A stretch of DNA of 64,000 nucleotides from contig NZ_QQTO01000001.1 of NCBI RefSeq assembly GCF_003351345.1, forward strand, positions 248,001 through 312,000, in the 5' to 3' direction. The translations under genes and the position numbers were made by a program. The notes under the pieces are model-generated. The model saw only the letters and a list, made by a program, of their open reading frames with translations, made no database searches and was not told the origin of the DNA. Of this stretch, positions 23,549 to 39,601 are shown in pieces. Source of the DNA: Allobosea caraganae. Its GTDB lineage: Bacteria > Pseudomonadota > Alphaproteobacteria > Rhizobiales > Beijerinckiaceae. Position 1 is the stretch's first letter. Each line of letters opens with the position of its first letter.

Positions 23549-24751
23549 TCAATGCAACTGCGGAACGCCTGACGGCAGCGTCGCCGCGGCGAACGGGTTG
23601 GCGTGCAGGCCCGGCGGCGCGATCACGCAGCGCGACTTGCCCTTCGACTTCGCCTGGTAGAGCGCCATGTCGGCGGCGCTGAGTAGGCTCGCCATGTCCG
23701 TGCCGTGCTCGGGTGCCAGCGCGATCCCGATTGAGGCGCCGACCGTGACCGCATTGCGATTGTCGAGCTCGTAGGGCAGCGAGATCTCGCGGATGAGGCG
23801 CTCGCCGAAGCCGAGCAGCTGCGCCGTCTCAGTCTGCCCGGAGAGCACGATGAACTCGTCGCCGCCGATCCGCGCCGCGAGGTCGCCGGCGCGGACCATG
23901 CCGCGCAGGCGCTCGGCGACGAGCTGCAGCAATCGGTCGCCGGCCATGTGGCCATGCGTGTCGTTGACGGCCTTGAAGCCGTCGAGGTCGAGATAGATCA
24001 GGGCGAGCCGGCGTGACCCCGCATCCCGTGCGAAGCGAAGATCGAGCGCCTTGGACAGGCCGGAGCGGTTCGACAGGCCGGTCAGCATGTCGTGGCGGGC
24101 ATGGAACTCGTGCTCGCGCTCGGCCCGCATGGTCGAGACCAGCATGGCGTTGAGCTTGTAGGCGGCCGCCGTCATGCTGAGCAGATAGGCCGGGATCTGG
24201 AAGAAGACGATCAGCATGATCGGCTCGCCCAGGAAGGGCGCGGCGAGGCAGCAGGCGCCGAGCACCAGGAAGATCATCAGGCCCGCCATGCGCGGGGCCG
24301 CGAAATTCCGGAAGCAGGTGCCCCCTACCATGGCTGCGGCGGAGAGGCAGGCGAGCGCCGCGATGACCCAGTCCCCGCTCGTCAGGCTGATGAAGGTGCC
24401 GTAGCCGATGCCCGCGGCCCAGGCGAGCCCGAGCAGGACGAAGAGGTCGGTCGGTGTCGGTTGGCCGCGCTCGGCCTGCTTCCGCGCGCTGACCAGCACG
24501 GCAAGCCTGGCCAGGCAGCAGGCGATCTCGAAGCCGCACCAGAAGATGAAGGGCGCTGTGGGGATGCGCAGGGCGATGAGCAGCGACACCGCCATGGTGT
24601 TGATTACGCCGCCGGCGAAGATTGGCAAGGTGCCGAACAGCGAGCCGATCAGCGCGATCCTGATGTCGGCGGGCACGTCATGGCCGGCATCGGTCAGCCA
24701 GCGCGTCCAGCGCCAGCGCGGCAAACTGTAGCTCGGAGCCTCGACACCCAC
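23549..24751 (-). CDS. Membrane-bound diguanylate cyclase (GGDEF)
   Basis: A 400-residue inner-membrane enzyme that makes cyclic di-GMP from two GTP. About six hydrophobic segments fill residues 30-205, with no recognisable periplasmic sensor domain. The C-terminal GGDEF domain runs from about 220 and has the intact active site IGGDEFIVL. An RxxD inhibitory site (RAGD) sits exactly five residues before it, so product feedback inhibition is expected. YLDLDGFKAVNDTHGHMAGD supplies the metal- and GTP-binding region. No EAL domain is present. It lies near the pilus operon and might affect attachment, but that is only positional inference. Confidence 0.93.
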   Translation of the reverse strand: MGVEAPSYSLPRWRWTRWLTDAGHDVPADIRIALIGSLFGTLPIFAGGVINTMAVSLLIALRIPTAPFIFWCGFEIACCLARLAVLVSARKQAERGQPTPTDLFVLLGLAWAAGIGYGTFISLTSGDWVIAALACLSAAAMVGGTCFRNFAAPRMAGLMIFLVLGACCLAAPFLGEPIMLIVFFQIPAYLLSMTAAAYKLNAMLVSTMRAEREHEFHARHDMLTGLSNRSGLSKALDLRFARDAGSRRLALIYLDLDGFKAVNDTHGHMAGDRLLQLVAERLRGMVRAGDLAARIGGDEFIVLSGQTETAQLLGFGERLIREISLPYELDNRNAVTVGASIGIALAPEHGTDMASLLSAADMALYQAKSKGKSRCVIAPPGLHANPFAAATLPSGVPQLH

Positions 24752-24905
24752 GCCTGCACGGCCTCGCGTTCAGGTTGCAGGCAGTGGGCCGGCAATCCTG
24801 ATCGGCTGATAGATCGCAGGCGTTACGATTCTGTATGACCCATCGTTATCTTTTCAGGAATCGCACGGCCGCGCGCTTATGTCCCAGCCGTGCCGAGGCC
24901 GCCGT

Positions 24906-25475
24906 TCAGACGCCCTTGCCGGCGAGCTTGACCAGCCGCGCCACCTGCGCGTCGAGGAAGCCGCTGCTGCGTGCGTCGGTGAGCTCGCCGTCCCCATCGA
25001 AGGCCTTGTCGGCCAGGCCGACGGCGACCATCTCGGGCACCAGCAGCGCGCCGAAGCCGAGCTCCAGCGAGGTCCGGAGCTGGGTCAGGCCGCGATAGGC
25101 GCCGAGCGCGCCGGGCGAGGCGCCGCCGAGCGCCACGACCTTGCCGGCAAGGCCGGAGGCGGGAGCGCCGGGCTTGGCGGTCGAGGCCCAGTCGAGCGCG
25201 TTCTTCAGCGCCGGAGCGTAGCCGGCATTGTATTCCGGGCTGGCGATGTAGAGCCCGTCATGGGCGTCGATCAGCGCCCGCAGGTCATGCGCGGCCTGGG
25301 GGGCGTTGCCGAAGCCGGTGGCGTCGACCAGCGGCAGCGGATAGTCGCCGAGCGAGATCTGCCTCACCTCGGCGCCGGCCGCCCGGAGCTTCCTGGCCGC
25401 CAGGGTGGCCAGCTTGGTGTTGAGCGAACCCTCGCGCCAGGAGCCGGCGAAAACAAGAATCTTGGGAGCGGACAT
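24906..25475 (-). CDS. NADPH-dependent FMN reductase family protein
   Basis: A 189-residue flavodoxin-like reductase (ChrR/azoreductase-type). The FMN phosphate-binding loop GSWREGSLNTKLA is near residues 11-23 and the isoalloxazine-contact motif SPEYNAGYAPALKNALDW near 79-96. A GGASPGALGAYRGLTQLR segment follows, typical of the family. Such proteins reduce quinones, chromate or azo compounds by two electrons and protect against redox cycling. It stands alone on the minus strand with 154 bp to the diguanylate cyclase gene. The natural substrate is unknown. Confidence 0.9.
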   Translation of the reverse strand: MSAPKILVFAGSWREGSLNTKLATLAARKLRAAGAEVRQISLGDYPLPLVDATGFGNAPQAAHDLRALIDAHDGLYIASPEYNAGYAPALKNALDWASTAKPGAPASGLAGKVVALGGASPGALGAYRGLTQLRTSLELGFGALLVPEMVAVGLADKAFDGDGELTDARSSGFLDAQVARLVKLAGKGV

Positions 25476-25626
25476 CGTTGCCTCTCGGAATATCGGGGCA
25501 GGAGGAAACCTGCCGGGAGAGGTCTAAGGCTTTGCAGCCGCGCCACCAAGACACGCTCTCGCCAGAGGGCGATTGCGCAGATGCAATGGCACGATGCTGT
25601 GAGCGGCAGTCTTTGAGCGAGGCGGC

Positions 25627-26427
25627 TCAGACGTGCTGGCGGTAGACCCAGACGCGCGCCGGCGGGATGTTGCGCAGCACCCAGTCCGAGACGAAGGCCT
25701 TCAAGCCCGAGCCCTTGCGCTGCACCGGCGAGATCACCGAATAGGTGAACTGGATGAAGGGCGCCCCTTCGACGACGAGCGTGAACGCGTCCTTGACCAG
25801 CGCGCTGCGCACGGCCGGCGGCCGCGTGAACAGCGGCAGGCTGGAGACGATCGCGATCGCCTTCTCGCCCAGATGGTCCTTCAGCGTCGTCGAGAGCGCG
25901 TAGGCATCGCCTTCGACCACGGTGGCGCGCGGGAAGCGCTCGCGCAGCAGCTTGCAGAATTCCGGGCTGTACTCGACCAGGATCAGCCTGGATTCATCGA
26001 CGCCGCGCTCGATCAGCGCCTCGGTGACGGGGCCGGTGCCGGGGCCGATCTCGATCACCGGGCCTGGCTGCTCGGGATCGACGAAGGAGGCCATGCGCCG
26101 GGCCAGGAACGGGCTCGACGGCGTCACCGATCCCGTGCGCAGCGGCGCGTCGATCCAGGACTTGAGGAAGCGGGCATCGTCGCCGAGCTTGGCCTTGGCC
26201 TCGCCGGCCGCGCGCGTCACCCGCGTCTTCAGCTTGCCGGCATGGCTGCGGAACTCGTCCTCGACCTTGAAGCGCACGGCGGCGACCTTGAGCCGGGCTT
26301 CGGCCACGCTGTCGACCAATTCGGCGGCGGTGACCCGCATCTCGCCTTCGATTCGCGCGGCAACGCTGGATTGGCCGAAGCGGGAGGCAAGCGAGCGGGG
26401 CGCCCGTGGGGTCGAAGAGCGTGTCAT
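25627..26427 (-). CDS. SAM-dependent methyltransferase resembling phospholipid N-methyltransferase PmtA
   Basis: A 266-residue protein. The C-terminal two thirds form a class I SAM methyltransferase with motif I VIEIGPGTGPVTEALI (about 124-139), an acidic LVEYSPEF motif II and VVEGDAYAL. The segment FLKSWIDAPLRTGSVTPSSPFLAR is like that of rhizobial PmtA, which methylates phosphatidylethanolamine toward phosphatidylcholine. The first 80 or so residues are extra: Ala/Arg/Lys-rich and helical, perhaps an amphipathic membrane-binding part. The start at 26427 follows an AGAGG site. An rRNA dimethyltransferase-like function is a less likely alternative. Confidence 0.75.
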   Translation of the reverse strand: MTRSSTPRAPRSLASRFGQSSVAARIEGEMRVTAAELVDSVAEARLKVAAVRFKVEDEFRSHAGKLKTRVTRAAGEAKAKLGDDARFLKSWIDAPLRTGSVTPSSPFLARRMASFVDPEQPGPVIEIGPGTGPVTEALIERGVDESRLILVEYSPEFCKLLRERFPRATVVEGDAYALSTTLKDHLGEKAIAIVSSLPLFTRPPAVRSALVKDAFTLVVEGAPFIQFTYSVISPVQRKGSGLKAFVSDWVLRNIPPARVWVYRQHV

Positions 26428-26551
26428 CAAAGGCCTCTTGCCGCCGGCAGCGCAAACGCACGTCGGGCCGGTTCTTCGCCAGCGGCGCGACGTTAGCCGC
26501 CGGAATGAGGCCGTTCAAGGGCGGAATGAGATGGGCCCGGCCAATCCGCCG

Positions 26552-27307
26552 TTAAATCAACGGCCTGTGGACCGGCGCTTCGTCGAAGAGCAGCGCCATT
26601 CGCTCGGTCAGGCGCGGGTTGAGCAGGGTCAGCCGGCCATTGGCGATCGAGAACAGCCCGGCGCGGCGCAGCTTCGCCCAGGTCTTGTTGGTGTGGACGA
26701 GCGAGAGCCCGAGCGCATCGGCGAATTGCTGCTGCTTGAGCGGGAACTCGAAGCTGTTCTCGCTCACGAGCCCGAGCGCCTCGGCGCGCCGGTAGAGCGA
26801 GATCACCAGCGCCGCGATGCGCTCGCCGGCATTGCGCTGGCCGACGGAGGTCAGGTTCTCGTCGATCAGGCATTCCTCGCGCGAACCGAGCCAGGCGATC
26901 TCGTAGGACAGGGCCGGCCGGTGCTGGAACAGCTCCCAGACGCGCTTGCGCGGGAAGACGCAGAGTTCGACATCGGTCAGCGCCTCGATGCCGTGCTGGG
27001 CGGCGTTGAGCAGAGCGGCCTGTAGGCCTGCGAGATCGCCCGGCAGCAGGATGTTGAGGATCTGGCGCCGCCCGTCCGGCAGCGATTTGTAGCGGAAAGC
27101 CCAGCCGGAGAAGAGCGTGTAGAGCTCGGCATCCTCCTGGCCGGGGTGGATGATGTCGGCGCCGGCCGGCAGCCAGCGATGGTCGAGCTTCATCGACTGG
27201 ATGAAGCGCACCTCCTCGTCGGATTTGTCCTTGAAGGCGGGCCTGAGCCGGAGCGGGCATGCCAAGCAGGGCGCGCCAGGGCGGGGCTGGCTGCCGGGAC
27301 CGATCAT
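26552..27307 (-). CDS. Crp/Fnr family transcriptional regulator
   Basis: A 251-residue regulator. A short N-terminal Cys pair (PCLACPLR) precedes a cyclic-nucleotide-binding-like domain (WLPAGADIIHPGQEDAELYTLFSGWAFRYKSLPDGRRQILNILLPGD). The C-terminal helix-turn-helix is in FADALGLSLVHTNKTWAKLRRAGL. The nucleotide-contact residues of true CRP are not obvious. With only one Cys pair it is not a canonical four-Cys Fnr. The start at 27307 was chosen from a GGGGGAG site and because an exact EcfG promoter (27342-27366) places the RNA start about 28 bases upstream. It is thus a likely second-tier regulator of the general stress response. Confidence 0.87.
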   Translation of the reverse strand: MIGPGSQPRPGAPCLACPLRLRPAFKDKSDEEVRFIQSMKLDHRWLPAGADIIHPGQEDAELYTLFSGWAFRYKSLPDGRRQILNILLPGDLAGLQAALLNAAQHGIEALTDVELCVFPRKRVWELFQHRPALSYEIAWLGSREECLIDENLTSVGQRNAGERIAALVISLYRRAEALGLVSENSFEFPLKQQQFADALGLSLVHTNKTWAKLRRAGLFSIANGRLTLLNPRLTERMALLFDEAPVHRPLI

Positions 27308-27341
27308 CTTTTGTACGCACTCCCCCACATCGTGCCCATCA

Positions 27342-27366
27342 AACGCAGGTGTCGTGGCCTTGTTCC
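27342..27366 (-). promoter_or_regulatory. EcfG promoter of the Crp/Fnr gene
   Basis: On the minus strand GGAAC (27366-27362), 16 bases, then CGTT (27345-27342): an exact match to the alphaproteobacterial EcfG/SigT consensus. The expected transcript start is about 28 bases before the Crp/Fnr start codon. Confidence 0.75.
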
Positions 27367-27400
27367 CGCGCGCCGCGCTGTAATGATCTCCGCGAGGGCC

Positions 27401-27426
27401 GGAACTGGGCTGCTCGCACCGGCGTT
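27401..27426 (+). promoter_or_regulatory. Probable EcfG promoter of the ABC exporter gene
   Basis: GGAAC (27401-27405), 17 bases, CGTT (27423-27426) on the plus strand. The 17-base spacer is within the range reported for EcfG promoters. It precedes the ABC transporter gene at 27518 by about 90 bases and diverges from the promoter at 27342-27366. Confidence 0.6.
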
Positions 27427-27517
27427 CCTGCAATGCGGCTCTGGACCGCGAGAAGTCTGGGGCCGGGCTCGCTGCGACCTGGTCCGACCGTGACGTGACT
27501 GGAGGGGCCCCGAGAGC

Positions 27518-29323
27518 ATGACCGAGACGCCTGTCGCCGCACGCTCGCGCATGCGCCGCTTCTTCCGCCTGGCGCTGCGATTCTGGACGGGCGGGACGCG
27601 GCTGCGCGCCTGGCTCCTCACCATCACGGTGCTCGGCTTCATCGCCGCCCAGCTCGCCGCTGCCGTCGGCATCAACACCTGGAACAGGTTGTTCTTCGAT
27701 GCGCTCGACAAGCGCGACGTCGCCGCGGTCTGGAGCGTCGTCGCCTGGCTGCCGGTCCTGGTCGCCGCCTCGGCGCTGTCCTTGTCGGGCGTGGTGATCA
27801 GCCGGATGCTGCTGCAGGTGCGCTGGCGCGAATACCTCACCCACCGCATCGCCGGCTGGTGGATCGCGGACCAGCGCTATTACCGCATGCAGTTCATCGT
27901 GAAGGAGCAGGCGGCGCCCGAGTACCGCATCGCCGAGGATGTCCGCCTCGCCATCGAGCCGCTCGCCGAGTTCGCCATCGGGCTGATCAGCGCCTTCGTC
28001 ACCGCCGCGACCTTCGCTGCCATCCTCTGGCAGGTCGCGGGCTCCGCCCATTTCACGCTTGCCGGCATGCAGGTCGTCATTCCCAGCTACATGGCGCTCG
28101 CCGCGATCCTTTACGCGGTCGTCGCCTCGCTCGCGGCCTATGTCACCGGCAGGCCGCTGGTCGGCCGCATCGCCGCCAAGAACGAGGCCGAGGCCCAGTT
28201 CCGCGCCGAGATGACGCGCCTGCGCGAGAACGCCGAGAGCATCGCGTTGATCAAGGGCGATGCCGACGAGCGCTCCTCCGTCGGCGAGAACTACGGCCGC
28301 GTCGTCGCCGCCTGGCTGCGCGTCGTCCGCCAGCAGGGCGTAATCGCGCTCGTGCTCAACACCAACGGAGCGCTCTTCCCGATCGTGCCGCTGCTGCTGA
28401 TCGCGCCGAAATACCTCGCGGGCGAGGTCACGTTAGGAGCCGTCATGCAGGTGGTCGCGGCCTTCAGCGCGGTGCAGGCGGCGCTGATCTGGTTCGTCGA
28501 CAATTTCGTCAGGCTGGCCGAATGGTTCGCCTCGGTGACCCGCGTCGACGAACTGGCCGAGGCCTTGGAAGGCCTGGACGTCGGCACCATCATGGAGAGC
28601 GACACGCAGATCCATCTCGGCGAGAGCGACGACGGCGCCATCCACATCGAGAGCCTCTCGGTGGCCCACAGCAATGGCCGCGTCGTCATCGCCGACGCCT
28701 CGGTGGTGATCGGCCTCGGCGAGAAGGTGCTGATCGTCGGCGAGAGCGGCACCGGCAAGTCGACCTTGATCCGGGCGCTCGCCGGGCTCTGGCCCTGGGG
28801 CTCCGGCGCGATCAGCCTGCCGCGCGGCAAGACCGTCGCCTTCGTGCCGCAGAAGCCCTATTTGCCGATGGGCACCCTGCGCACCGTGCTGCTCTACCCG
28901 GAGGCCCAGAGCCCGGCCGATGACGAGACCGTCATCGCCGCGCTCAAGCGCTGCGGCCTCGCCTATCTCGCCAAGCGCCTGGACGAGGACGACAAATGGG
29001 ACCGCATCCTCTCCGGCGGCGAGCGTCAGCGCGTCGCCTTCGCCCGCCTGCTGATCCAGAAGCCCGACATCATCATCATGGACGAGGCGACCTCGGCGCT
29101 GGACGAGGACAGCCAGAACTCGCTGCTCGGCCTGTTCGAGGCGGAACTGGCGCGGTCGACCATGATCAGCGTCGGCCATCGCCCCGGCCTCGAGGAGTTC
29201 CACGACCGCAAGATCACGCTGGAGAAGCGGCTCGCGGGCGCGCACCTGACCTCGCGCCGCCTCGGCAAGTCGCTCTGGCGTCTGTTCCGCAGCCGGCTGC
29301 CGGCCAATGACGAGGAATCCTGA
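27518..29323 (+). CDS. ABC transporter with fused membrane and ATPase domains (YddA/ABCD-like)
   Basis: A 601-residue half-transporter. The N-terminal membrane domain (about 30-345) has the family segment RWREYLTHRIAGWWIADQRYYRMQF and an EEA-like loop in FRAEMTRLRENAESIALIKGDADE. The C-terminal ATPase has Walker A GESGTGKST (about 407-415), signature LSGGERQRVAFARL and Walker B IIIMDEATSALDEDS. This matches the ABC_membrane_2 branch that includes YddA, the BacA-related family and peroxisomal ABCD transporters of very-long-chain acyl groups. It would act as a homodimer in the inner membrane. A possible EcfG promoter lies upstream. The cargo is unknown; fatty-acid or lipid-like compounds and peptides are the family options. 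Confidence 0.88.
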   Translation: MTETPVAARSRMRRFFRLALRFWTGGTRLRAWLLTITVLGFIAAQLAAAVGINTWNRLFFDALDKRDVAAVWSVVAWLPVLVAASALSLSGVVISRMLLQVRWREYLTHRIAGWWIADQRYYRMQFIVKEQAAPEYRIAEDVRLAIEPLAEFAIGLISAFVTAATFAAILWQVAGSAHFTLAGMQVVIPSYMALAAILYAVVASLAAYVTGRPLVGRIAAKNEAEAQFRAEMTRLRENAESIALIKGDADERSSVGENYGRVVAAWLRVVRQQGVIALVLNTNGALFPIVPLLLIAPKYLAGEVTLGAVMQVVAAFSAVQAALIWFVDNFVRLAEWFASVTRVDELAEALEGLDVGTIMESDTQIHLGESDDGAIHIESLSVAHSNGRVVIADASVVIGLGEKVLIVGESGTGKSTLIRALAGLWPWGSGAISLPRGKTVAFVPQKPYLPMGTLRTVLLYPEAQSPADDETVIAALKRCGLAYLAKRLDEDDKWDRILSGGERQRVAFARLLIQKPDIIIMDEATSALDEDSQNSLLGLFEAELARSTMISVGHRPGLEEFHDRKITLEKRLAGAHLTSRRLGKSLWRLFRSRLPANDEES

Positions 29324-29352
29324 CGCTCGCGCTGCCGTGATGCAGGAAAATC

Positions 29353-29377
29353 GGAACTTTGTGAGTTAGATCACGTT
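29353..29377 (+). promoter_or_regulatory. EcfG promoter of the small gene at 29435
   Basis: GGAAC (29353-29357), exactly 16 bases, CGTT (29374-29377) on the plus strand. The small ORF begins about 57 bases downstream after a GGGAGAGA ribosome site. Confidence 0.75.
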
Positions 29378-29434
29378 CTTCCCGATGGAAACCATGCGAC
29401 GTCGCACGGTCATCATGGCGTCGGGAGAGACAGT

Positions 29435-29713
29435 ATGTTGAACGACAGCCTTGCCCCCATCGGGCGCGCCTTCGCCTTCTTCGGAATCATGGCTGCCGTC
29501 ATCGGCGCGCTGACCCTCGGCGCCGACGTCCAGGGCTCCGCCGACCAGAGCTCGGCGACGATCGCCCAGCTCAAGCAGCGCCAGAACTTGCCGGCCGAGA
29601 CCGAGTTCGCCTCAGTCGACCCGGCCCATCGCACCGCCGACCGCACCAAGCGCGCGATCGCGACCTCACAGGAGGCGCATCTCGCGAATCCGGATCGCGC
29701 CATCCTGCGCTGA
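29435..29713 (+). CDS. Small protein of unknown function with one membrane segment
   Basis: A 92-residue protein. Residues 10-30 (GRAFAFFGIMAAVIGALTLGA) are hydrophobic and could be a membrane anchor or an uncleaved signal. The remainder is polar and Gln/Ala/Thr-rich with no Cys, and I recognise no domain. It has a good ribosome site (GGGAGAGACAGT then ATG) and an exact EcfG promoter, which together argue that it is a real stress-induced gene. A second EcfG promoter lies 12 bases after its stop. Confidence 0.72.
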   Translation: MLNDSLAPIGRAFAFFGIMAAVIGALTLGADVQGSADQSSATIAQLKQRQNLPAETEFASVDPAHRTADRTKRAIATSQEAHLANPDRAILR

Positions 29714-29724
29714 GCCTGGCCCCG

Positions 29725-29749
29725 GGAACTTTTCCGCCTTCGCAGCGTT
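29725..29749 (+). promoter_or_regulatory. EcfG promoter directly upstream of a terminator (sRNA promoter)
   Basis: GGAAC (29725-29729), 16 bases, CGTT (29746-29749). There is no ORF before the intrinsic terminator that starts 36 bases later, so the promoter appears to serve a short non-coding RNA or an attenuated leader. Confidence 0.7.
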
Positions 29750-29753
29750 CTCG

Positions 29754-29813
29754 ACCTAGCGCTCCCCTCGCGCGACGCACTTGATAAGCCGCCTCCGGGC
29801 GGCTTGTTTTTTG
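29754..29813 (+). ncRNA. Candidate EcfG-dependent small RNA, GsrN-like
   Basis: From an expected start near 29754-29758, transcription would run about 55-60 bases into an intrinsic terminator. The 5' part can form a short hairpin: GCGC (29759-29762), loop TCCCCTC (29763-29769), GCGC (29770-29773). The C-rich loop could pair with Shine-Dalgarno sequences. The 3' part is the terminator stem. A C-rich exposed loop plus EcfG/SigT control is the pattern described for GsrN of Caulobacter. Homology is not shown here; architecture and promoter are what I see. The alternative is an attenuated leader for the gene at 29844. Confidence 0.5.
29786..29813 (+). terminator. Intrinsic terminator
   Basis: An 8-bp stem AAGCCGCC (29786-29793) and GGCGGCTT (29798-29805), loop TCCG, followed by GTTTTTTGT. 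This is a strong Rho-independent terminator between the small gene/sRNA promoter and the transglutaminase gene. Confidence 0.85.
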
Positions 29814-29843
29814 TGTCGCGGCGGGCGTGTAAGAGGTTGAGAC

Positions 29844-30722
29844 ATGTATCTGCGCATCCGCCACGCCACCACCTACCGCTATGCCGAGCCCGTCCAGTTC
29901 GGGCCGCACCGGCTGATGCTGCGGCCGCGCGACAGCTTCGACCTGCGCGTCGTCGACACCGCGCTGACGATCACGCCGCGGGCGCGGCTGCGCTGGATGC
30001 ACGACGCCTATGGCAACTCGGTCGCGGTCGCGAATTTCGATGCGCCGTCCGACACGCTCGACATCGTCAGCGAACTCGTGATCCAGCGCTTCGGCTCGGC
30101 CCTGCCGCGCTCCGAGGTCGAAGCGGAGACGGCCGTGACCGGCGTCGCCTACAGCCCGGCCGAGAATGCGGTGCTCCAGCCCTATCTCGACCTCGCCGCC
30201 GCCGATCCCGACGGCGTGCTCGACCAATGGCTCGCCGATTTCAGCGCCCGCATCGGCCAGGGCTCCGGCCATCTCCTGCGCGACCTGGCCCACGCCATCT
30301 ATACCGGGCTGAGCTATGCGGTGCGCTATGACGAGGGCACGCAGCACCCGGCCGACACGATCCGCGGGGGCAGCGGCTCCTGCCGCGACTATGCCTGGCT
30401 CTTCATCGAGCTGGCGCGGCGCCTGGGCTTCGCCGCGCGCTTCGTCACCGGCTATATCCATGACCGGACGATGGCGGGCGGCAACCTCGTCTCGGCGGTC
30501 GGACTGACCCATGCCTGGGCCGATGTCTTCATCCCCAGCGACGGCTGGGTCGAGTTCGACCCGACCAATGACCTCGTCGCCGACCGGCAGCTCCTGCGCG
30601 TCGCGGTGGCGCGCGTGCCGGAGGACGCCTCGCCGGTCTCCGGCAGCTATACCGGCCGGGCGGGCTCCTTCCTGGGCCTGAGCGTCGGCGTCAGCATCGA
30701 GCAGGCGGAGCTGGTGGGGTAG
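29844..30722 (+). CDS. Transglutaminase-like cysteine protease family protein
   Basis: A 292-residue cytoplasmic-looking protein without signal peptide. The N-terminal domain (about 1-90) is the bacterial transglutaminase-like N-terminal region (MYLRIRHATTYRYAEPV). The core carries the catalytic triad Cys180 (GGSGSCRDYAWLF), His223 (GLTHAWADVF) and Asp239 (WVEFDPTND). Family members act as proteases or amidases more often than cross-linkers. Its ribosome site AGAGG is clear. It lies 31 bp after a strong terminator; read-through from the EcfG promoter at 29725 would be its only visible stress link. Substrate unknown. Confidence 0.88.
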   Translation: MYLRIRHATTYRYAEPVQFGPHRLMLRPRDSFDLRVVDTALTITPRARLRWMHDAYGNSVAVANFDAPSDTLDIVSELVIQRFGSALPRSEVEAETAVTGVAYSPAENAVLQPYLDLAAADPDGVLDQWLADFSARIGQGSGHLLRDLAHAIYTGLSYAVRYDEGTQHPADTIRGGSGSCRDYAWLFIELARRLGFAARFVTGYIHDRTMAGGNLVSAVGLTHAWADVFIPSDGWVEFDPTNDLVADRQLLRVAVARVPEDASPVSGSYTGRAGSFLGLSVGVSIEQAELVG

Positions 30723-32372
30723 TCACCCCCGGTGCACCACCCGCCACGAGCCGAGCACCCGCCCTTCCGGCTTCCTCACCTGCACGGCCTCGATCTGCGC
30801 CAGCAGCCCGGCGAAGAGCTTGGGCGGCTCGCTATAGGTGATCGCGCGGTCGGCTTCGATCGTGATCTCGATCGTCCCGGCGTCGGTATCGCCAACCATC
30901 ACCATGATGCTGACATCGGGCGTGCTGCGGAGCGCGCGCGAGACCACGTCGACGATCATGAAGCCGAGCGGGATGATCCGGTCGACCGCAAGCGAGGACA
31001 CCGTCTCGATCTTGCTGGTCACCCATTGGTCGCGGCGGCGGATCAGGTTGAAGATCATCGTCATGACGTCGTCGAGGAAGAGGTCGACGCGCACCGGCTG
31101 CATCTCGCCATCGGCCAGGGTGAAGCGATAGGCGGCCGAGAGCACGTGGACGCGGCACTCGGCGTCGGAGAGCGCGAGGCGCGCCTCGCCGCGATAGTCG
31201 CGCTTGGACAGGCCGATATAGCTCTGCACGACTTGCAGGCTGTTCTTCACCCGGTGGTGCAGCTCGCGCACCAGGAAGCGGTTGTCGTCGAGCGCGGTCT
31301 GCAGCCGGCGCTGGCGCACCTCCTGGTCGTCGACCATGGTGTTGAACGCCTCGGCGACGCTGCGGATGTCGCTCGGCATGTCGTCGGCGACGGCGGCGCG
31401 CGCGCTCGACAGCGTCGCGCGGGCCCGCGCCGCGGCCTCGATGCCGCGCAGCCAGCGCACGCAATGCCGGTCGATGGCGCGCAGGTAGACGAAGCAGAGC
31501 AGCGCCAGCGTCAGCAGCGGCGTCAGCAGCAGGGCGAGGAACTGCGTCCGCGCCGCCCGCTCGGCCATGTCGTCGAAGTTGGCGATGACGTAGAGGTCCG
31601 GCTCGGCCACCAGCCGGGCCGCGTAGGAGCGCATATCGCCCTTGCGGTTCGGCGCTTCCCACCGCTCGGTGCGCTGGGGCACGATCTCCTGTGCCGGGAG
31701 CCAGGAATCGTCCTGCTCGTCCACCCCGCGGCTGGTGATGACATCGCCGCCGCGATTCACCAGCGCGACGGCAATGCCGCTATCGCTGCCGCTGACGTCG
31801 AAGACCTGGTTCAGCAGATCGGGGTCGACGAGCAGCAGCGCGTCCTGCATCGGGCCGGCCGTGGTGTTCTGCGCGTAGACCGCCAGGTAGCGCTGACCTC
31901 CCACGCGGATCTGGTCGTAGCGCGCCCGGGCAAGCTCGGTGCCGCCCCAGACCTGGATCACCTGCCGCCCCTTCAGGCCTTCCGCCGAGGAATCCAGATC
32001 GGCCGTGCTGATCCGGTCGTCGAGCGAGGCCGAGCAAATCCGCCCGTCGCGCATCCTGATATGGACGGCGCGGTAGCCGGCGATCTGCGTGAGCATCTCG
32101 CGCTCGATCTGCCCGCAATCGCCATCGCCCGTCTTCATGGCGGCGAGCGTCGTCCCCGTCGCCAGCAGCGAGCGCAGTGCGCCGCGATACCAGACGCGCG
32201 TGCGCACCGCGAAATCATCCGCCGTGCGCGCCTGGAAGGACTGGATCGAGGCGATGACCGTCCGATAGGTCGTGATCGCGGCGATCGCCGTCAGGAAGGC
32301 GATCGGCAGGACGATGGCGACCAGCAGGGCCAGAAGCCGGCCTCTGACGGTCTTGAACCGCGCCAGCCGCAT
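30723..32372 (-). CDS. HisKA_2 sensor kinase with degenerate ATPase domain, cotranscribed with ecfG
   Basis: A 549-residue membrane protein. Two membrane segments (about 12-36 and 277-297) enclose a periplasmic sensory region of about 240 residues, followed by a HAMP-like linker. The H-box is intact (VRELHHRVKNSLQVVQSYI, His at about 372-373). The ATPase domain is not: where the N-box should read like NELVTNALKHAF it reads VDVVSRALRSTP, without the Mg-binding Asn, and no DxGxG box is visible. Its start overlaps the ecfG stop by one base (TGATG), so it is made with EcfG. It probably acts on PhyR, perhaps as a phosphatase, like PhyP of Sphingomonas, rather than as a kinase. That function is inference. 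Confidence 0.8.
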   Translation of the reverse strand: MRLARFKTVRGRLLALLVAIVLPIAFLTAIAAITTYRTVIASIQSFQARTADDFAVRTRVWYRGALRSLLATGTTLAAMKTGDGDCGQIEREMLTQIAGYRAVHIRMRDGRICSASLDDRISTADLDSSAEGLKGRQVIQVWGGTELARARYDQIRVGGQRYLAVYAQNTTAGPMQDALLLVDPDLLNQVFDVSGSDSGIAVALVNRGGDVITSRGVDEQDDSWLPAQEIVPQRTERWEAPNRKGDMRSYAARLVAEPDLYVIANFDDMAERAARTQFLALLLTPLLTLALLCFVYLRAIDRHCVRWLRGIEAAARARATLSSARAAVADDMPSDIRSVAEAFNTMVDDQEVRQRRLQTALDDNRFLVRELHHRVKNSLQVVQSYIGLSKRDYRGEARLALSDAECRVHVLSAAYRFTLADGEMQPVRVDLFLDDVMTMIFNLIRRRDQWVTSKIETVSSLAVDRIIPLGFMIVDVVSRALRSTPDVSIMVMVGDTDAGTIEITIEADRAITYSEPPKLFAGLLAQIEAVQVRKPEGRVLGSWRVVHRG

Positions 32373-32932
32373 CAGAGTCTGACGATTTCGGCCCCGGTCC
32401 TCTGCACGGCCGCCGCGCTCTGCCGGTCAGGCCCGAGATCGTCGAGACCGCCGATGGAGAGAAGCTCGGCCAGCTTGGTCCGGGCGCGATTGACCCGGCT
32501 CTTGATCGTCCCGATGGCGACGCCGCAGATCTCGGCCGCCTCCTCGTAGGACAGCCCGGTGGCGCCGACCATGATCAGCACCTCGCGCTGCTCCTCCGGC
32601 AGCTTTGCCAGCGCCTTGCGGAAATCGGCCAGGTCGAGATGGCTCTCCTGGTTGCCGTGCACGGCGATGCGCTCGGCATAGGTGCCCTCGGAATCCTGCA
32701 CCTCCCGCCCGCGCTTGCGGTAGAGCGAGTAGTAGGTGTTGCGCAGGATGGTGAAGAGCCAGGCGCGCAGGCTCGTGCCCGGCTCGAACTTGTCGGAATT
32801 GCCCCAGGCCTTCAGCAAGGTGTCCTGGACCAGGTCGTCGGCGAGCTGCATCGAGCCCGACAGCGAGGCCGCGAAGGCTCGCAGGTTCGGGATCTCCTTG
32901 ATCAGCCCGTCCTTGAAGTCAGAGGCGCTCAT
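32372..32932 (-). CDS. ecfG: General stress response ECF sigma factor EcfG
   Basis: A 186-residue ECF sigma factor of the EcfG family. Region 2 contains SMQLADDLVQDTLLKAWGN and SLRAWLFTILRNTYYSLYRK. Region 4 has LPEEQREVLIMVGATGLSYEEAAEICGVAIGTIKSRVNRARTKL. It directs RNA polymerase to GGAAC-N16/17-CGTT promoters, many of which are found in this window. The start MSASDF at 32932 overlaps the nepR stop by 14 bases; an ATG at 32956 is also in frame. In unstressed cells NepR holds it inactive; phosphorylated PhyR removes NepR. Confidence 0.95.
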   Translation of the reverse strand: MSASDFKDGLIKEIPNLRAFAASLSGSMQLADDLVQDTLLKAWGNSDKFEPGTSLRAWLFTILRNTYYSLYRKRGREVQDSEGTYAERIAVHGNQESHLDLADFRKALAKLPEEQREVLIMVGATGLSYEEAAEICGVAIGTIKSRVNRARTKLAELLSIGGLDDLGPDRQSAAAVQRTGAEIVRL

Positions 32933-33140
32933 CGGACGTTCCTCCGGCGGACGCACGTTGTTCCTGTGCTTCCAACTGCGCCAGCAGGACCAGAAATTTG
33001 TCGGGAATCGGGGCGCTCACGAGGTCGTCATAATGAGCCTTCAGCGACCGGCCGATCGATTCCTGGACCTTCGGGTCCAGGACCGGCTCCTGCTCGTCGC
33101 CCCGGTCGGGCTCCGTCATCCCCAGATCCGCGTTGCTCAT
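32919..33140 (-). CDS. nepR: Anti-sigma factor NepR
   Basis: A 73-residue protein with the conserved NepR core: a helix in PKVQESIGRSLKAHYDDLV followed by APIPDKFLVLLAQLEAQE. It binds and inhibits EcfG and is itself sequestered by the sigma-like domain of phosphorylated PhyR. It is the first gene of the nepR-ecfG-kinase operon, overlaps ecfG, and faces phyR across a 238-bp divergent region. An exact EcfG promoter lies about 135 bases upstream, giving positive autoregulation of the operon. Confidence 0.93.
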   Translation of the reverse strand: MSNADLGMTEPDRGDEQEPVLDPKVQESIGRSLKAHYDDLVSAPIPDKFLVLLAQLEAQEQRASAGGTSDERL

Positions 33141-33275
33141 CTTGCCCTCACGCCCGCTCGCAGGCCCGCTTTTGGCACGGGTCCCGTTGATATTTCACTA
33201 TTCAGTCGCCGTTCGCCCCGGGCGGTCAAGACCGATTCTAAAGGCTGTGCGTACCGACACTCATCCGGCCAAAGT

Positions 33276-33300
33276 AACGGTCGGTTTCCGGAAAAGTTCC
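33276..33300 (-). promoter_or_regulatory. EcfG promoter of the nepR-ecfG operon
   Basis: Minus strand: GGAAC (33300-33296), 16 bases, CGTT (33279-33276), an exact consensus match. The untranslated leader to nepR would be about 130 bases. A comparable exact promoter for phyR on the plus strand is not found; the GGAAC at 33305 lacks a partner at 16 or 17 bases. Confidence 0.85.
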
Positions 33301-33378
33301 CGCCGGAACAAAAAATAAATCGCTTGTCAGAAAGCCGTTCCCGGTGCTCATTTTCGGCAGTTTAAAAAGGACGTATCC

Positions 33379-34173
33379 ATGTCGATTGCGAAAGAAATTG
33401 CGCCGAATCTGCCTTATCTGCGTCGCTTCGGCCGGGCACTCAGCGGCACGCAAGCAAGTGGCGACGCCTATGTGGTGGCGATGCTGGAAGCGCTTGTCGT
33501 CGATCCCAGCGTCTTCCCGCGCGACGTCAATTCCCGCATCGGCCTGTACCGGACCTTCCTGAAGCTCTGGTCGTCGGTGGGCCTCAACATCAACGCCGCA
33601 ACCTCGGGGTTCGAGCGCTCCTCCGCCGAGCGCAACCTCGAGGCGCTGACGCCGCGCCCGCGCCAGGCCTTCCTGCTGCGCACGGTCGAGGGCTTCTCGA
33701 TCGAGGACGTCGCGTCGATCATGGAGGTCTCTGCGGCCGAGGCGGCCAACCTCGTGCAGCTTGCCGGCCAGGAGATCGCCGAGCAGGTCGCGACCGACGT
33801 GCTGATCATCGAGGACGAGCCGATCATCGCGCTCGACATCGAGACCATGGTCGAGGAGCTCGGCCATACCGTGACCGGCGTCGCCCGCACGCACCGCGAG
33901 GCGATCGCCTCGGTGGCCAAGAAGCGGCCCGGCCTCGTATTGGCCGATATCCAGCTCGCCGATGGCAGCTCGGGGCTGGACGCGGTGAACGAGATCCTCG
34001 CCGCCATCGACGTTCCCGTGATCTTCATCACCGCCTATCCCGAGCGCCTCCTGACCGGCGACCGGCCGGAGCCGGCCTTCCTGATCACCAAGCCGTTCCA
34101 GCCAGAGGCGGTGAAGGCCGCGATCAGCCAGGCGCTGTTCTTCGACCGGCGCGCCGGCCGCAAGGCGGCCTGA
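33379..34173 (+). CDS. phyR: General stress response regulator PhyR
   Basis: A 264-residue response regulator with the hallmark PhyR layout. The N-terminal sigma-factor-like domain (about 1-135, with LEALTPRPRQAFLLRTVEGFSIEDVASIM) mimics EcfG. The C-terminal receiver (about 140-260) has the acidic pair E145/D146, phospho-acceptor D190 in LVLADIQLAD, T218 in FITAYPE and K238. When phosphorylated, the sigma-like domain is exposed and binds NepR. It is divergent from nepR-ecfG and followed by a strong terminator, so it is monocistronic. It has no visible perfect EcfG promoter. Confidence 0.96.
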   Translation: MSIAKEIAPNLPYLRRFGRALSGTQASGDAYVVAMLEALVVDPSVFPRDVNSRIGLYRTFLKLWSSVGLNINAATSGFERSSAERNLEALTPRPRQAFLLRTVEGFSIEDVASIMEVSAAEAANLVQLAGQEIAEQVATDVLIIEDEPIIALDIETMVEELGHTVTGVARTHREAIASVAKKRPGLVLADIQLADGSSGLDAVNEILAAIDVPVIFITAYPERLLTGDRPEPAFLITKPFQPEAVKAAISQALFFDRRAGRKAA

Positions 34174-34194
34174 CCAATTTTCTGATGTTTTTTC

Positions 34195-34223
34195 AACCCG
34201 CGGCCTTCGGGCCGCGGGTTTTT
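34195..34223 (+). terminator. Intrinsic terminator of phyR
   Basis: An 11-bp perfect stem AACCCGCGGCC (34195-34205) and GGCCGCGGGTT (34210-34220) with a TTCG tetraloop and a short T-tract. It lies 22 bases after the phyR stop. Confidence 0.88.
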
Positions 34224-34238
34224 GATGTCGAGGCCGCG

Positions 34239-34313
34239 TCACCAACCCATGAAGTAGATCACGAGCAGCACAGGAAACGGCAGCACCACCATCGCGAGCC
34301 CGACCCAACGCAT
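34239..34313 (-). CDS. Possible 24-residue membrane peptide
   Basis: A very short ORF, ATG at 34313 and TGA at 34239. It begins MRWVGLAMVV and is hydrophobic over almost its whole length, ending IYFMGW, so it would be a single membrane helix. A GAGAG-containing stretch precedes the start by about 11 bases. It lies downstream of the small membrane-protein gene at 34367-34534 on the same strand and could share its stress-induced transcript. Support is limited to its composition and position. Confidence 0.35.
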   Translation of the reverse strand: MRWVGLAMVVLPFPVLLVIYFMGW

Positions 34314-34366
34314 CTCATCCACTCTCACATCCCCGTCCCTTCGCTTGCCGCGTTGCGCCGCCGGAT

Positions 34367-34534
34367 TCACCGGGGCTTGCGTAGCAAGGCGATCAACCCG
34401 GTCAACGCCGCAGCTGCGAGCGCCATCGCGAACATCACCCGCGCGACCGATACGGCCAGCCCGGGCACGCCGCCGAAGGCCAGCATCGCCGCAACCAGCG
34501 CAACGATCAGAAAAGTCACGGCCCAGCCGGCCAT
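34367..34534 (-). CDS. Small DUF1328-like membrane protein
   Basis: A 55-residue protein with two hydrophobic helices: MAGWAVTFLIVALVAAMLAFGG, then a turn with a conserved-looking GVPGLA, then VARVMFAMALAAAALTGLIAL and a basic tail. This is the pattern of the DUF1328 (YtjA-like) family, often induced by stress in proteobacteria. The start MAGWAV was chosen to match the family; the frame is open 24 codons upstream. A near-consensus EcfG promoter lies upstream. Function unknown. Confidence 0.7.
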   Translation of the reverse strand: MAGWAVTFLIVALVAAMLAFGGVPGLAVSVARVMFAMALAAAALTGLIALLRKPR

Positions 34535-34571
34535 CGGATATCCCTCGACGTTCGAATCGCTGCCTTTGGGA

Positions 34572-34597
34572 AACAGTTGCCTGCCGGCAAAGGTTCC
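34572..34597 (-). promoter_or_regulatory. Near-consensus EcfG promoter of the DUF1328-like gene
   Basis: Minus strand: GGAAC (34597-34593), 17 bases, TGTT (34575-34572). It differs from the consensus only in the first base of the second element. It diverges from the promoter at 34627-34652. Confidence 0.5.
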
Positions 34598-34626
34598 GGT
34601 TTCCAACCGGCCTTATGCTTCCCGGC

Positions 34627-34652
34627 GGAACAGCTTCCCGCGTGAAGCCGTT
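34627..34652 (+). promoter_or_regulatory. Probable EcfG promoter of the extensin-like gene
   Basis: GGAAC (34627-34631), 17 bases, CGTT (34649-34652). It lies about 50 bases before the chosen ATG at 34703. Confidence 0.6.
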
Positions 34653-34702
34653 GCCTTCTCGAAGCCGGCGGCGTGAGCCCTCGCGCAAAAGCGACGGAGC
34701 GG

Positions 34703-35512
34703 ATGAAGCGATTGCGAGCCAGCGCCAGGGTCGTTGGAACGGGCGCTATCTTCATGGCGTTGAGCCTGAGCGCGGCCGGAGCAGCGCCCCGTCCTGCGCC
34801 CGCCCCTTTGCCACCTGTGCGCCCGCCCGAGTTCGCCCGGCCGCAGCTGCCTGCGGCCCCGCCTCCAGCGCCGGAGCGCGGACATCAAATTGTCGTCGAG
34901 CCCTCCAGCGAAACCGCGAACCCGGCGGGAAGCGCATGCCTGCGCGCGCTTGCGTCGGTGCCGGGCAACCGCGTTCGCCCGGCCGAGCCGAAGTCGGTCT
35001 CGTCAGCCGATCCGGCCTGTCAGATCACTGACGCCGTCACGGTCGAGGCGCTCGCCGTTCGCAAGGCGGATGGTCCGGGGGAGGTCGCCTTCAATCCGCC
35101 CGTTACGATCGGCTGCGACATGGCGCGCACGCTGGCCGATTGGCTCGACGGCAGCCTGGAGCCGCTGGTGCGCGGCCATTTCGGCAAGGAGCTGTCGCGC
35201 CTGCGGGTCGGCGGCGGCTATGAATGCCGCCGCCGCAACCGGCAAAGCGCCGGGCCGGTCAGCGAGCATGCGACCGGCCGGGCGCTCGACATCTTCGCCT
35301 TTACGGTCGGGGAGCCGAAGGCCGGTGGCTTCGACGTGGTGGTGGAGAAACATGACGGCCTGGCGCAGGGCCGCTTCGTCCAGGCGGTGCGCCATTCGGC
35401 CTGCGGCGCCTTCTCGACCAGCCTCGGGCCGGGCTCGGACGCCGCCCACGCCAACCACCTGCACGTCGATATCCAGGCGCGGCGCTCGGCCTCGACACGA
35501 TTCTGCCAATAA
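34703..35512 (+). CDS. Extensin-like C-terminal domain protein (M15-like fold)
   Basis: A 269-residue exported protein. A signal sequence (VVGTGAIFMALSLSAAGAAP) precedes a Pro-rich linker (about 30-62), followed by the extensin-like C-terminal domain. That domain has zinc-peptidase M15-like motifs SEHATGRALDIFAF and HANHLHVDI, suggesting a murein-acting hydrolase or a related metal-binding fold. Several Cys residues are conserved. The start ATG at 34703 follows GGAG; a GTG at 34673 is also possible. An EcfG promoter with a 17-base spacer suggests induction as part of envelope stress protection. Confidence 0.85.
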   Translation: MKRLRASARVVGTGAIFMALSLSAAGAAPRPAPAPLPPVRPPEFARPQLPAAPPPAPERGHQIVVEPSSETANPAGSACLRALASVPGNRVRPAEPKSVSSADPACQITDAVTVEALAVRKADGPGEVAFNPPVTIGCDMARTLADWLDGSLEPLVRGHFGKELSRLRVGGGYECRRRNRQSAGPVSEHATGRALDIFAFTVGEPKAGGFDVVVEKHDGLAQGRFVQAVRHSACGAFSTSLGPGSDAAHANHLHVDIQARRSASTRFCQ

Positions 35513-35525
35513 GGACGGCGATGGG

Positions 35526-35774
35526 CTAGAAGACGATGTCCGAGAGGTCGTCGACACTGGCGGGGAGGGCGGGCTCGGAGAGGTCAGGCGGGAGGGATCT
35601 GGTCCGGCTGCGCTCGCGTCGCTCCCGGCGGAGCGCCAGGACGGCAAGGGCCGCATCCCCGTCCAGCCCCGACGCGATCAGGTCTTCCAGCTCCCAGAAG
35701 GGCGGAAGTTCGTCCTGGCCGCGCTGCATCGGCAGGGGTTTTGCGTACGGGGCTTGGGGGGTACGGATGGACAT
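35526..35774 (-). CDS. Small protein of unknown function
   Basis: An 82-residue soluble protein, rich in Leu, Arg and Asp. It contains FWELEDLIASGLDGDAALAVLALRRERRERSR, which looks helical, and ends PASVDDLSDIVF. It is convergent with the extensin-like gene, leaving 13 bases between stops. No family is recognised and no strong ribosome site is seen. It is listed because its composition is protein-like and no other gene explains the stretch. Confidence 0.5.
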   Translation of the reverse strand: MSIRTPQAPYAKPLPMQRGQDELPPFWELEDLIASGLDGDAALAVLALRRERRERSRTRSLPPDLSEPALPASVDDLSDIVF

Positions 35775-35836
35775 CTGGATTTCCGGCCGAAGTAGAATGT
35801 TAACGTATGATCTCCGCTGGGGTTCCAGATTGGTTA

Positions 35837-35861
35837 GGAACTGTGGAGCGAATGCGGCGTT
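35837..35861 (+). promoter_or_regulatory. EcfG promoter of the DUF992-like gene
   Basis: GGAAC (35837-35841), 16 bases, CGTT (35858-35861), an exact match. The start codon at 35894 is 32 bases after the second element. Confidence 0.78.
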
Positions 35862-35893
35862 TTCAGGTAACCATCTTGTCTAGGAGATTCGTG

Positions 35894-36400
35894 ATGAGCC
35901 ATCGGATTGCCAATGTCGCGACCGCGGTCGCGTTTGCCTTCGCCGCTTTCGGCGCAGCGCCCACCATGGCTCAGGCTCAGACGGGTGCTCCCGCCGGCCG
36001 GCTTTCTTGCAGTGTCGGCCCCGGCCTCGGGCTGGTCGTGACCTCGCAGCGCCCGATGGAATGCCGCTTTTCGCCGCGCCGCGGGCCCGTGCAGGCCTAT
36101 AGCGGCGTGGTTCGCAGCTTCGGCCTCGATGTCGGCACGATCCGGCGCAGCACCATGTCCTGGCGCGTCTACGGACCCTATGCGCGCGCACCGCTCGGCG
36201 CCCTTGCCGGCACCTATGCCGGCGCGGCCGCGGGTGCTTCGGCCGGCGCGTCGGGTGGCTCCGGCAACTTCCTGGTCGGCGGCGTCAACAACGAGGTAAC
36301 CCTTCAGCCCCTCTCCCTGCAGAGCCGCCGCGGCTACAATGTCGCCGTCGGCGTCACCGGCTTCGAGCTCTCGCTGGTGCCGCCGCGCCGCCGGCGCTGA
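35894..36400 (+). CDS. DUF992-like secreted protein
   Basis: A 168-residue exported protein with signal peptide (VATAVAFAFAAFGAAPTMAQA). The mature part has RLSCSVGPGLGLVVTSQRPMECRF, with two Cys that could pair, and a Gly/Ala-rich segment GTYAGAAAGASAGASGGSG, then NFLVGG. This arrangement fits the alphaproteobacterial DUF992 family of unknown role. The start follows TAGGAGATT. An exact EcfG promoter marks it as a likely stress-induced envelope protein. The palindromic repeat just after its stop may help end transcription. Confidence 0.8.
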   Translation: MSHRIANVATAVAFAFAAFGAAPTMAQAQTGAPAGRLSCSVGPGLGLVVTSQRPMECRFSPRRGPVQAYSGVVRSFGLDVGTIRRSTMSWRVYGPYARAPLGALAGTYAGAAAGASAGASGGSGNFLVGGVNNEVTLQPLSLQSRRGYNVAVGVTGFELSLVPPRRRR

Positions 36401-36406
36401 GCCCTG

Positions 36407-36455
36407 GAGCATGGTGCGAAAAAGCGGGCACCGGGTTTTCGCGTAAGCCGTGCTC
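36407..36455. repeat. GAGCATG-type palindromic repeat, copy 1
   Basis: A 49-base imperfect palindrome beginning GAGCATGGTGCGAAAA and ending GCCGTGCTC. It has the same ends and inner GAAAA/TTTTC pairing as the copies at 36631, 48824 and 52496. It lies seven bases after the DUF992-like gene. Confidence 0.7.
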
Positions 36456-36576
36456 TGAATTTTAGCCGAAAACCTGCGCGGAGGCCGGCCTTCGCGCCAT
36501 GGTTACGATTCGATAACCTTCCTGGCGCAAGTTTAGTCTAATTTGATGCTTTCGGCCCGCCCACCGCTCGCGGGCC

Positions 36577-36601
36577 GGAACAACGCCATATCTGCGACGT
36601 T
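36577..36601 (+). promoter_or_regulatory. EcfG promoter of the single-domain response regulator
   Basis: GGAAC (36577-36581), 16 bases, CGTT (36598-36601), an exact match. The leader to the start codon at 36720 is about 110 bases and contains a palindromic repeat. Confidence 0.75.
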
Positions 36602-36630
36602 CCCCCCGCCTGGGGCCGAGTTTTGAGTCG

Positions 36631-36678
36631 AGCATGGCGCGAAATGTGGGAACCGGTTTCTCGCGAAAGGCCATGCTC
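36631..36678. repeat. GAGCATG-type palindromic repeat, copy 2
   Basis: A 48-base imperfect palindrome from GAGCATGGCGCGAAA to GGCCATGCTC. It lies inside the predicted untranslated leader of the response-regulator gene, where it would form a hairpin in the RNA. Confidence 0.7.
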
Positions 36679-36719
36679 CCGCTTTTGGTGACGTGATCTA
36701 GGAAAGGACGCCGGATTCG

Positions 36720-37079: not shown

Positions 37080-37107
37080 CGCGGCATCGGCCGCGGGCCG
37101 CCCGTCA

Positions 37108-39139: not shown

Positions 39140-39141
39140 GG

Positions 39142-39504: not shown

Positions 39505-39567
39505 GTCTGTCGTCCCCTGTGCGTGAAATGCTGTGCCCGCCGAGGAGCCCGGCGTTCATGCAGTGCC

Positions 39568-39592: not shown

Positions 39593-39601
39593 GCGCCAGG
39601 T

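Follow-up and report, generated by a model that had tools for sequence, protein, structure and literature searches.

A predicted EcfG-dependent small RNA of Bosea, GsrN-like in kind, with nepR as its tentative leading target

In alphaproteobacteria, the general stress response (GSR) is known as a switch made of three proteins, PhyR, NepR and EcfG. Among small RNAs, the Cuckoo and CcsR RNAs belong together. Two reports describe them as anti-Shine-Dalgarno RNAs (PMC3927594, PMC10253847). The Caulobacter RNA GsrN is reported to act on katG through six tandem cytosines (PMC5869019). Relatives of GsrN were sought there by an EcfG site, proximity to the GSR genes and transcription, and exposed C-rich loops were found; predicted GsrN-like RNAs are given for Rhizobiaceae, Brucella, Rhodopseudomonas and Bradyrhizobium. 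According to the same text, GsrN pulls down nepR and sigT mRNA, with a predicted nepR site GGGGGGCG. The enriched nepR stretch is marked as internal to the gene, and a GSR reporter was unmoved by deletion or overexpression of gsrN (PMC5869019). For Caulobacter, these data are support for a contact with nepR and evidence against feedback.

The element described here lies on the forward strand of the window (the whole stretch of DNA analysed, 64,000 nt). An exact consensus promoter of EcfG, the ECF general-stress sigma factor (GGAAC-N16-CGTT), is located at 29725–29749; direct reading gives GGAAC at 29725–29729, a spacer of 16 nt and CGTT at 29746–29749. The predicted small RNA of about 57 nt (29755–29812) scores 75.3 bits at its own locus with the covariance model R1. 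Its start is placed about 6 nt past the -10 box and its 3' end at the T run. A hairpin with a C-rich loop, GCGC-UCCCCUC-GCGC (29759–29773), is formed by the arms GCGC at 29759–29762 and GCGC at 29770–29773 and exposes TCCCCTC (29763–29769). The terminator scan places an intrinsic terminator with a U tail at 29783–29812, with 11 pairs in a stem that starts at 29783 and the run TTTTTT at 29807–29812. Folding of the 58-nt RNA yields two elements, the loop hairpin and the terminator (minimum free energy (MFE) −25.8 kcal/mol, z −3.4), and z ranges from −2.95 to −5.49 in eight folded sequences, that of the window included. No ATG and no GTG is present in 29750–29812, which holds two TTG codons. A TTG-started frame of 175 aa, a purely mechanical call, starts at 29804 inside the terminator and overlaps the downstream transglutaminase gene in another frame. 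The earlier note had proposed the exact promoter, the hairpin exposing TCCCCTC, a strong terminator and the lack of an ORF after the promoter; direct reading, folding and the scan bear out all four.

In the whole window, 13 exact GGAAC-N16/17-CGTT sites are found (0.5 expected in shuffles). Twelve of the 13 exact EcfG-type matches fall within 27342–40811, and some of these may be chance or intragenic matches. Terminator-like sites number 12 in 24000–36000, with 4.6 expected.

An ABC transporter gene (27518–29323, assigned by Pfam) lies upstream. A second exact EcfG promoter (29353–29377, forward strand) precedes a small ORF of 92 aa (29435–29713, forward strand), which has no Pfam match and is kept in the GSR locus of Bosea. 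The constant downstream neighbour of the RNA is a transglutaminase-like gene (29844–30722, forward strand; PF08379, PF01841). Three genes on the reverse strand follow: a histidine kinase gene (30723–32372, Pfam), ecfG for the general stress sigma factor (32372–32956, Pfam) and nepR for the anti-sigma factor (32919–33140, PF18557). A promoter pattern scan detects an EcfG-type promoter upstream of nepR-ecfG (33276–33300, reverse strand), and phyR, encoding the GSR response regulator, is located at 33379–34173 (forward strand; PF22029, PF22233, PF00072). With these genes identified by Pfam, the distance between the RNA and nepR-ecfG is 2.6–3.3 kb, in agreement with the approximately 3 kb estimated before. 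The RNA is linked to GSR genes in nine of ten RNA-bearing 9-kb loci; in G064 the two are about 200 kb apart.

A transcript from the promoter at 29353 would stop at the same terminator as the small RNA. The RNA could thus be a 3'-UTR product, made mainly from the mRNA of the 92-aa ORF with the inner promoter as a minor source. The second promoter itself speaks for this origin, as does the lack of any other terminator-like site between the ORF and the transglutaminase gene in the window. A like promoter is found before the 92-aa ORF in nine of nine Bosea loci that lack both the RNA and an intact transglutaminase gene. The inner promoter, however, is present at fixed spacing in 30 of 30 orthologues and would be needless for a pure 3'-UTR product, which makes this origin quite improbable.

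R1 was built from 18 orthologues and contains the -10 box, not the -35 box. Thirty of the 67 genus genomes searched have a match of at least 57.9 bits, and 12 of these 30 strong orthologues were absent from the training set. GGAAC is positioned exactly 16 nt before the -10 box in all 30 (form GGAAC-N16-[CG][GA]TT). Weaker matches are present in G019, G065 and G061 (42–46 bits) and, at the same place, in G087 (36.1 bits). All 34 matches in the 67 genomes sit 5' of the transglutaminase gene. An orthologue of this gene (E≤1e-80) is found in 47 of the 67 genomes, and no strong match occurs in the 20 genomes without it. A DNA search matched 21 of 61 relatives, own genome counted; one of the matches lies outside the genus, and that in G035 is off target. 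By pattern scan, the orthologous element was located in Bosea sp. OK403, B. psychrotolerans, B. lathyri, two Bosea MAGs and one Beijerinckiaceae MAG. Chance does not account for the element, since 30 of the 67 genomes share its promoter, hairpin and terminator with unchanged promoter spacing. These sequence features make it very probable that the small RNA exists and depends on EcfG.

The RNA is absent from many Bosea. The C-loop hairpin is missing from 13 other transglutaminase-bearing genomes (G003, G005, G007, G014, G029, G036, G062, G063, G068, G069, G077, G086 and G088). Twelve of these retain GGAAC-N16-CGTA/CGTC and a terminator; G088 has neither. The loci L143, L145–L148, L151 and L152 represent a Bosea clade with this promoter variant and a terminator at the same place and no C-loop hairpin, which suggests a decayed or different short transcript. 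A locus tree was calculated from 33 loci (29 Bosea and 4 divergent; L161, which has no GSR genes nearby, was left out). A Bosea clade of 20 loci (support 0.86) includes ten scattered RNA loci, and its sister clade of nine includes none. Since the RNA loci are scattered through the clade of 20, the RNA seems to be old there, with several losses, some of them together with the transglutaminase gene. In the sister clade it was either lost or never present. L163 (G017) retains a remnant of the transglutaminase gene (a match of 48 aa), flanked by the small ORF on one side and the GSR genes on the other; this lineage is losing the gene.

The position directly 5' of the transglutaminase gene is constant (the gap from terminator to gene is 30 nt), and of the 13 syntenic genomes that lack the C-loop hairpin, 12 retain the promoter variant and a terminator. 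Both observations would suit a leader or attenuator, with an EcfG promoter that belongs to the transglutaminase gene and a hairpin and terminator that only tune read-through. Changes in the stem and the common core of the loop point instead to a function of the RNA itself. Both-sided changes affect three of five stem pairs of the hairpin, and the pairs 14–28, 15–27 and 16–26 of alignment A3 vary (G-C, A-U, G-U and similar). An alignment of 34 rows has 11 cells with both-sided changes, of which the loop hairpin holds ten; shuffling gives 5.2 on average and reaches 11 in 0 of 500 rounds, although this alignment was fitted to the model and kinship raises counts of this type. Counted by pairs, both-sided changes are ordinary in the same alignment (113 of 500 shuffles). 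A slide control (+2) gave nine both-sided cells, yet with 46% of positions paired compared to 95.9%. In an 18-row MAFFT alignment, 87.0% are paired versus 84.6% after shuffling (2 of 500). L014 (degenerate) and L019, L021 and L022 (off target) were removed from alignments A1, A3 and A4.

Free folding recovers a loop holding CCUC or CCC in 28 of 34 sequences, and the commonest loops (UCCCUC, AUCCUC, UCCCCUC and UCCUC) account for 17 of the 34. In the eight folded sequences the MFE structure matches the centroid structure, and nothing there points to a rival fold. The 30 orthologues have similar terminators, but the model by which they were chosen includes the terminator. On balance, a leader or attenuator is improbable, and the RNA likely acts through its C-rich loop.

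At gathering scores, Rfam, with its suhB/mmgR and BjrC1505 families, has no match in the whole window. Seven sub-threshold matches have E-values of 0.7–3.6 and are all far below their gathering scores. BjrC1505 (RF02356) is an alphaproteobacterial small RNA whose terminator, GCCGCC-N4-GGCGGC, is similar and which has a CCUCCC stretch. It occupies a separate locus in the same genome, and the RNA of the window reaches 14.8 with this model versus a gathering score of 50. The BjrC1505 copy of the own genome is found at L103:1942–2080 (G000:C38) with 94 bits. R1 matches of 30–40 bits and similar length are found repeatedly across the genus. In a sample of 297 genomes of the order, searched with stricter filters owing to the number of genomes, R1 has matches with E≤0.01 in 152, the own genome included, and nothing above 39.3 bits outside the genus. 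Nineteen inspected matches of this sample are other elements; those in L074, L091 and the own L103 are BjrC1505 according to Rfam.

The RNA shares with Cuckoo and CcsR the small ORF upstream, the C-rich anti-Shine-Dalgarno loop, the terminator and a stress promoter (PMC3927594, PMC10253847). It differs in the promoter class (EcfG versus RpoH), in its single loop hairpin and in the loop itself: the loop motif CCUCCUCCC given there occurs in none of 34 folds, and the loop of the window is UCCCCUC. Since the upstream 92-aa ORF has no Pfam match, it lacks the DUF1127 of its counterpart in Cuckoo/CcsR. Among the titles listed for Bosea small RNAs and for Bosea together with EcfG, none concerns this RNA. 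Those listed for GsrN, for EcfG or NepR together with small RNAs and for small RNAs of Methylobacterium include none on this RNA or on a small RNA acting on nepR, subscription journals being outside the scope. Together with the absence of an Rfam match, this agrees with the suggestion that the RNA is possibly undescribed.

GsrN is the closest described system. The Bosea RNA has a near-consensus EcfG site, lies near ecfG and phyR and exposes a C-rich loop in its 5' part. An EcfG-type promoter, the exposed C-rich 5' loop and Hfq in the genome (hfq is present in the genome of the window) are common to both RNAs. Proximity to the GSR locus is shared with GsrN-like RNAs in most lineages listed for them (PMC5869019). 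The RNAs predicted there for Rhizobiaceae, Brucella, Rhodopseudomonas and Bradyrhizobium were chosen by EcfG site and GSR proximity, some also by expression, and C-rich loops are reported for the Rhizobiaceae set; these are genera other than Bosea. The differences concern the loop (CCUC/CCCUC versus the six cytosines described for GsrN), the architecture (one short loop hairpin plus terminator, unlike GsrN) and the predicted pairing at the nepR Shine-Dalgarno site, again unlike GsrN.

The earlier note had regarded the RNA as an equivalent of GsrN. Promoter class, neighbourhood and C-rich 5' loop uphold this in part, as a likeness in kind; the katG target does not, because no katG is present in the genome of the window (99.86% complete). 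GsrN's best-proved action can thus not be the action of the Bosea RNA here, and katG was rejected as a target for this genome. Among 29 genomes, katG is missing from 7 of 15 with the RNA and present in 14 of 14 without it. Promoter class, location and loop type (PMC5869019) would speak for a true orthologue of GsrN with katG as its main target, a reading that is highly improbable given the lack of katG in this and other RNA-bearing genomes.

A different target is suggested by complementarity. The segment CCCUCGCGC (29765–29773, forward strand), which comprises the 3' half of the loop and the 3' stem arm, is complementary with one G:U to the Shine-Dalgarno site of nepR, GCGTGAGGG (33145–33153, reverse strand). 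In most RNA-bearing species the nepR start region reads GCGCGAGGGCUGACAUG or near it. In 28 of the 30 genomes compared, the best contiguous pairing overlaps the Shine-Dalgarno region of nepR, and the complementary run is 8–13 nt (G:U counted) in 24 of 30. Within 234 Shine-Dalgarno-bearing starts, nepR is in the top 5% in 25 of 30 genomes (median 2.6%); this pool consists mostly of Bosea GSR and katG loci, so that orthologous genes recur. G087, G065 and G061 (degenerate) and G073 (nepR not found) were dropped from these counts. The mean pairing score is 22.5 for nepR (n=9) versus 12.2–15.9 for six neighbouring genes (L158 has no nepR and four loci have no ABC transporter start). Among 804 ATG-started ORFs of at least 60 aa, many of which are not genes, nepR ranks 12; in an energy ranking of the ORFs of the window it fell below the length cut. 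Cofolding was compared over 90 sampled starts in 14 genomes: nepR falls into the best 15% in ten of these genomes, and its percentile is poor in G008, G004, G064 and G028. Many Bosea, e.g. L155 and L236, have a hairpin of the type CCUGCU-GGAAA-AGCAGG in the nepR leader, 5' of the Shine-Dalgarno site.

Matched changes on both sides are found in the close relatives G084, G009 and G083 (CACGAGGG with CCCUCGUG) and in G064 (UGUGGGG with CCCCGCG, two G:U included). Changes are unmatched in G032, G028 and G013, and G015 and G035 have one mismatch each. When the nepR sites were swapped between genomes, the own partners formed 253 of 290 canonical pairs versus 249.6 in the shuffled sets, which is not significant (P 0.16; G019 was additionally left out and the row of G025 is out of register). 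Only half of the genomes (15 of 30) have an own duplex energy better than the mean of the swaps. CGAGGG is present in the nepR leader of 17 of 22 Bosea without the RNA. As the leader site is kept in most of these, the RNA does not hold nepR in place; the RNA may rather have been fitted to nepR during evolution.

These results have to be weighed against a generalist anti-Shine-Dalgarno RNA, whose CCUC loop, as in other small RNAs with C-rich loops, would compete for many G-rich ribosome-binding sites and for which nepR would not be special. The core common to most loops is just CCUC or CCCUC, sites of the form GCGYGAGGG-N3-9-ATG number 24–43 per genome in eight of eight genomes (24 in the own genome, nepR included), and the test of own versus swapped partners gave no significant difference. 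A generalist RNA is a serious possibility, somewhat below even odds; the long nepR matches in 24 of 30 genomes and the mean score above that of six neighbours argue against it, as does a different loop that fits a different nepR site in a sister genus (see below). The target pattern occurs 11 times in 513,665 bases, nine times at nepR orthologues; of the permuted control patterns in the same bases, one occurs 10 times and five others 2–3 times. Eight other target sites were inspected, four of them with one string and the remainder in one genome each. An apparent second conserved target, GCGCGAGGGCTTCATG, was rejected: in four of the listed genomes it precedes frames of 143, 390, 33 and 101 aa, and the 33- and 101-aa frames are alike and look like the wrong frame of a common gene. 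Taken together, the complementarity makes nepR the leading candidate target of the RNA, if tentatively so.

The sister genus, g28 of the same family, has no ecfG within 6 kb of phyR in five of five genomes. A report on Methylobacterium extorquens likewise describes ecfG apart from phyR and suggests that one EcfG paralogue there might be under the control of a small RNA (PMC4814048); g28 would be Methylobacterium-like. All five g28 genomes (loci L177 and L179–L182) have a C-rich double hairpin with an EcfG promoter and a terminator; the unit is convergent with phyR and lies no more than about 250 bases from the 3' end of this gene. Rfam has no match to this RNA in the two loci scanned, L177 and L181. 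The model R2, built for the g28 RNA, has matches with E≤0.01 in 39 of 297 genomes, and only the five g28 genomes exceed 34.4 bits. In three of the five genomes, the inner loop UCCCCUUG is exactly complementary over 8 nt to CAAGGGGA, which precedes the likely nepR start. In the fourth, 8 nt with one G:U (GCAUUCCC:GGGGAUGC) pair elsewhere at the site, the nepR start being assigned by position. In these four genomes, the nepR score is reached by 0 of 33 other starts with the loop hairpin alone and by 2 of 33 with the whole RNA. In the fifth the loop does not fit nepR, and 15 of 33 (loop hairpin) and 28 of 33 (whole RNA) other starts score as high. The whole g28 RNA also scores 18.5–23 against the nepR sites of Bosea, so that pairing across the genera is not cleanly separated.

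Near phyR (G057, G150 and G196 were left out of 43), a script for EcfG promoter, C-rich hairpin and terminator matched in 12 of 47 loci; five of these are g28 and two look coding. Candidates in other genera of the order are located at L259:2385, L262:6885, L275:4378, L278:8157 and L282:8179. The fit to nepR is 7 nt with G:U in L278 and 7 nt, from another hairpin, in L259. L275 has no fit, and nepR was not found in L262. In L282 there is no fit at the likely nepR start, and 10 nt pair only before alternative starts far upstream. Pairing with nepR is thus weak or absent in these candidates. A broader proposal is that EcfG-dependent C-rich-loop RNAs of alphaproteobacteria share the nepR start as a target, with the loop refitted in each lineage; it would unite CCCUCGCGC:GCGCGAGGG in Bosea, UCCCCUUG:CAAGGGGA in the sister genus and the binding of nepR mRNA by Caulobacter GsrN. 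We consider it speculative and rather unlikely in this general form.

Our preferred reading, with a probability of roughly 0.7, is a compact base-pairing small RNA of Bosea of about 57 nt that is transcribed by EcfG, is GsrN-like in kind and has nepR as its most likely single target. When the GSR is on, EcfG RNA polymerase would start from the promoter at 29725–29749 and stop at the terminator at 29783–29812, and the U tail of the RNA would bind Hfq. The exposed CCCUC loop would meet G-rich Shine-Dalgarno sites, and pairing would spread from the loop to the 3' arm of the stem (CCCUCGCGC). Of single targets, the start region of nepR, at a distance of about 3.3 kb, would be the likeliest; further mRNAs are probably hit as well. 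Pairing may possibly cover the nepR Shine-Dalgarno site, so that less NepR is made and EcfG activity becomes longer or sharper, a step put forward tentatively.

If an EcfG-made RNA is indeed fitted to nepR, the PhyR/NepR/EcfG switch of the general stress response would gain an RNA arm, and silencing of nepR would create a positive loop on EcfG. Targeting of nepR would also suggest why such RNAs adjoin GSR genes and why nepR mRNA co-purified with Caulobacter GsrN. Should the target be shared between lineages, a stress sigma factor would silence its own anti-sigma factor via a small RNA.
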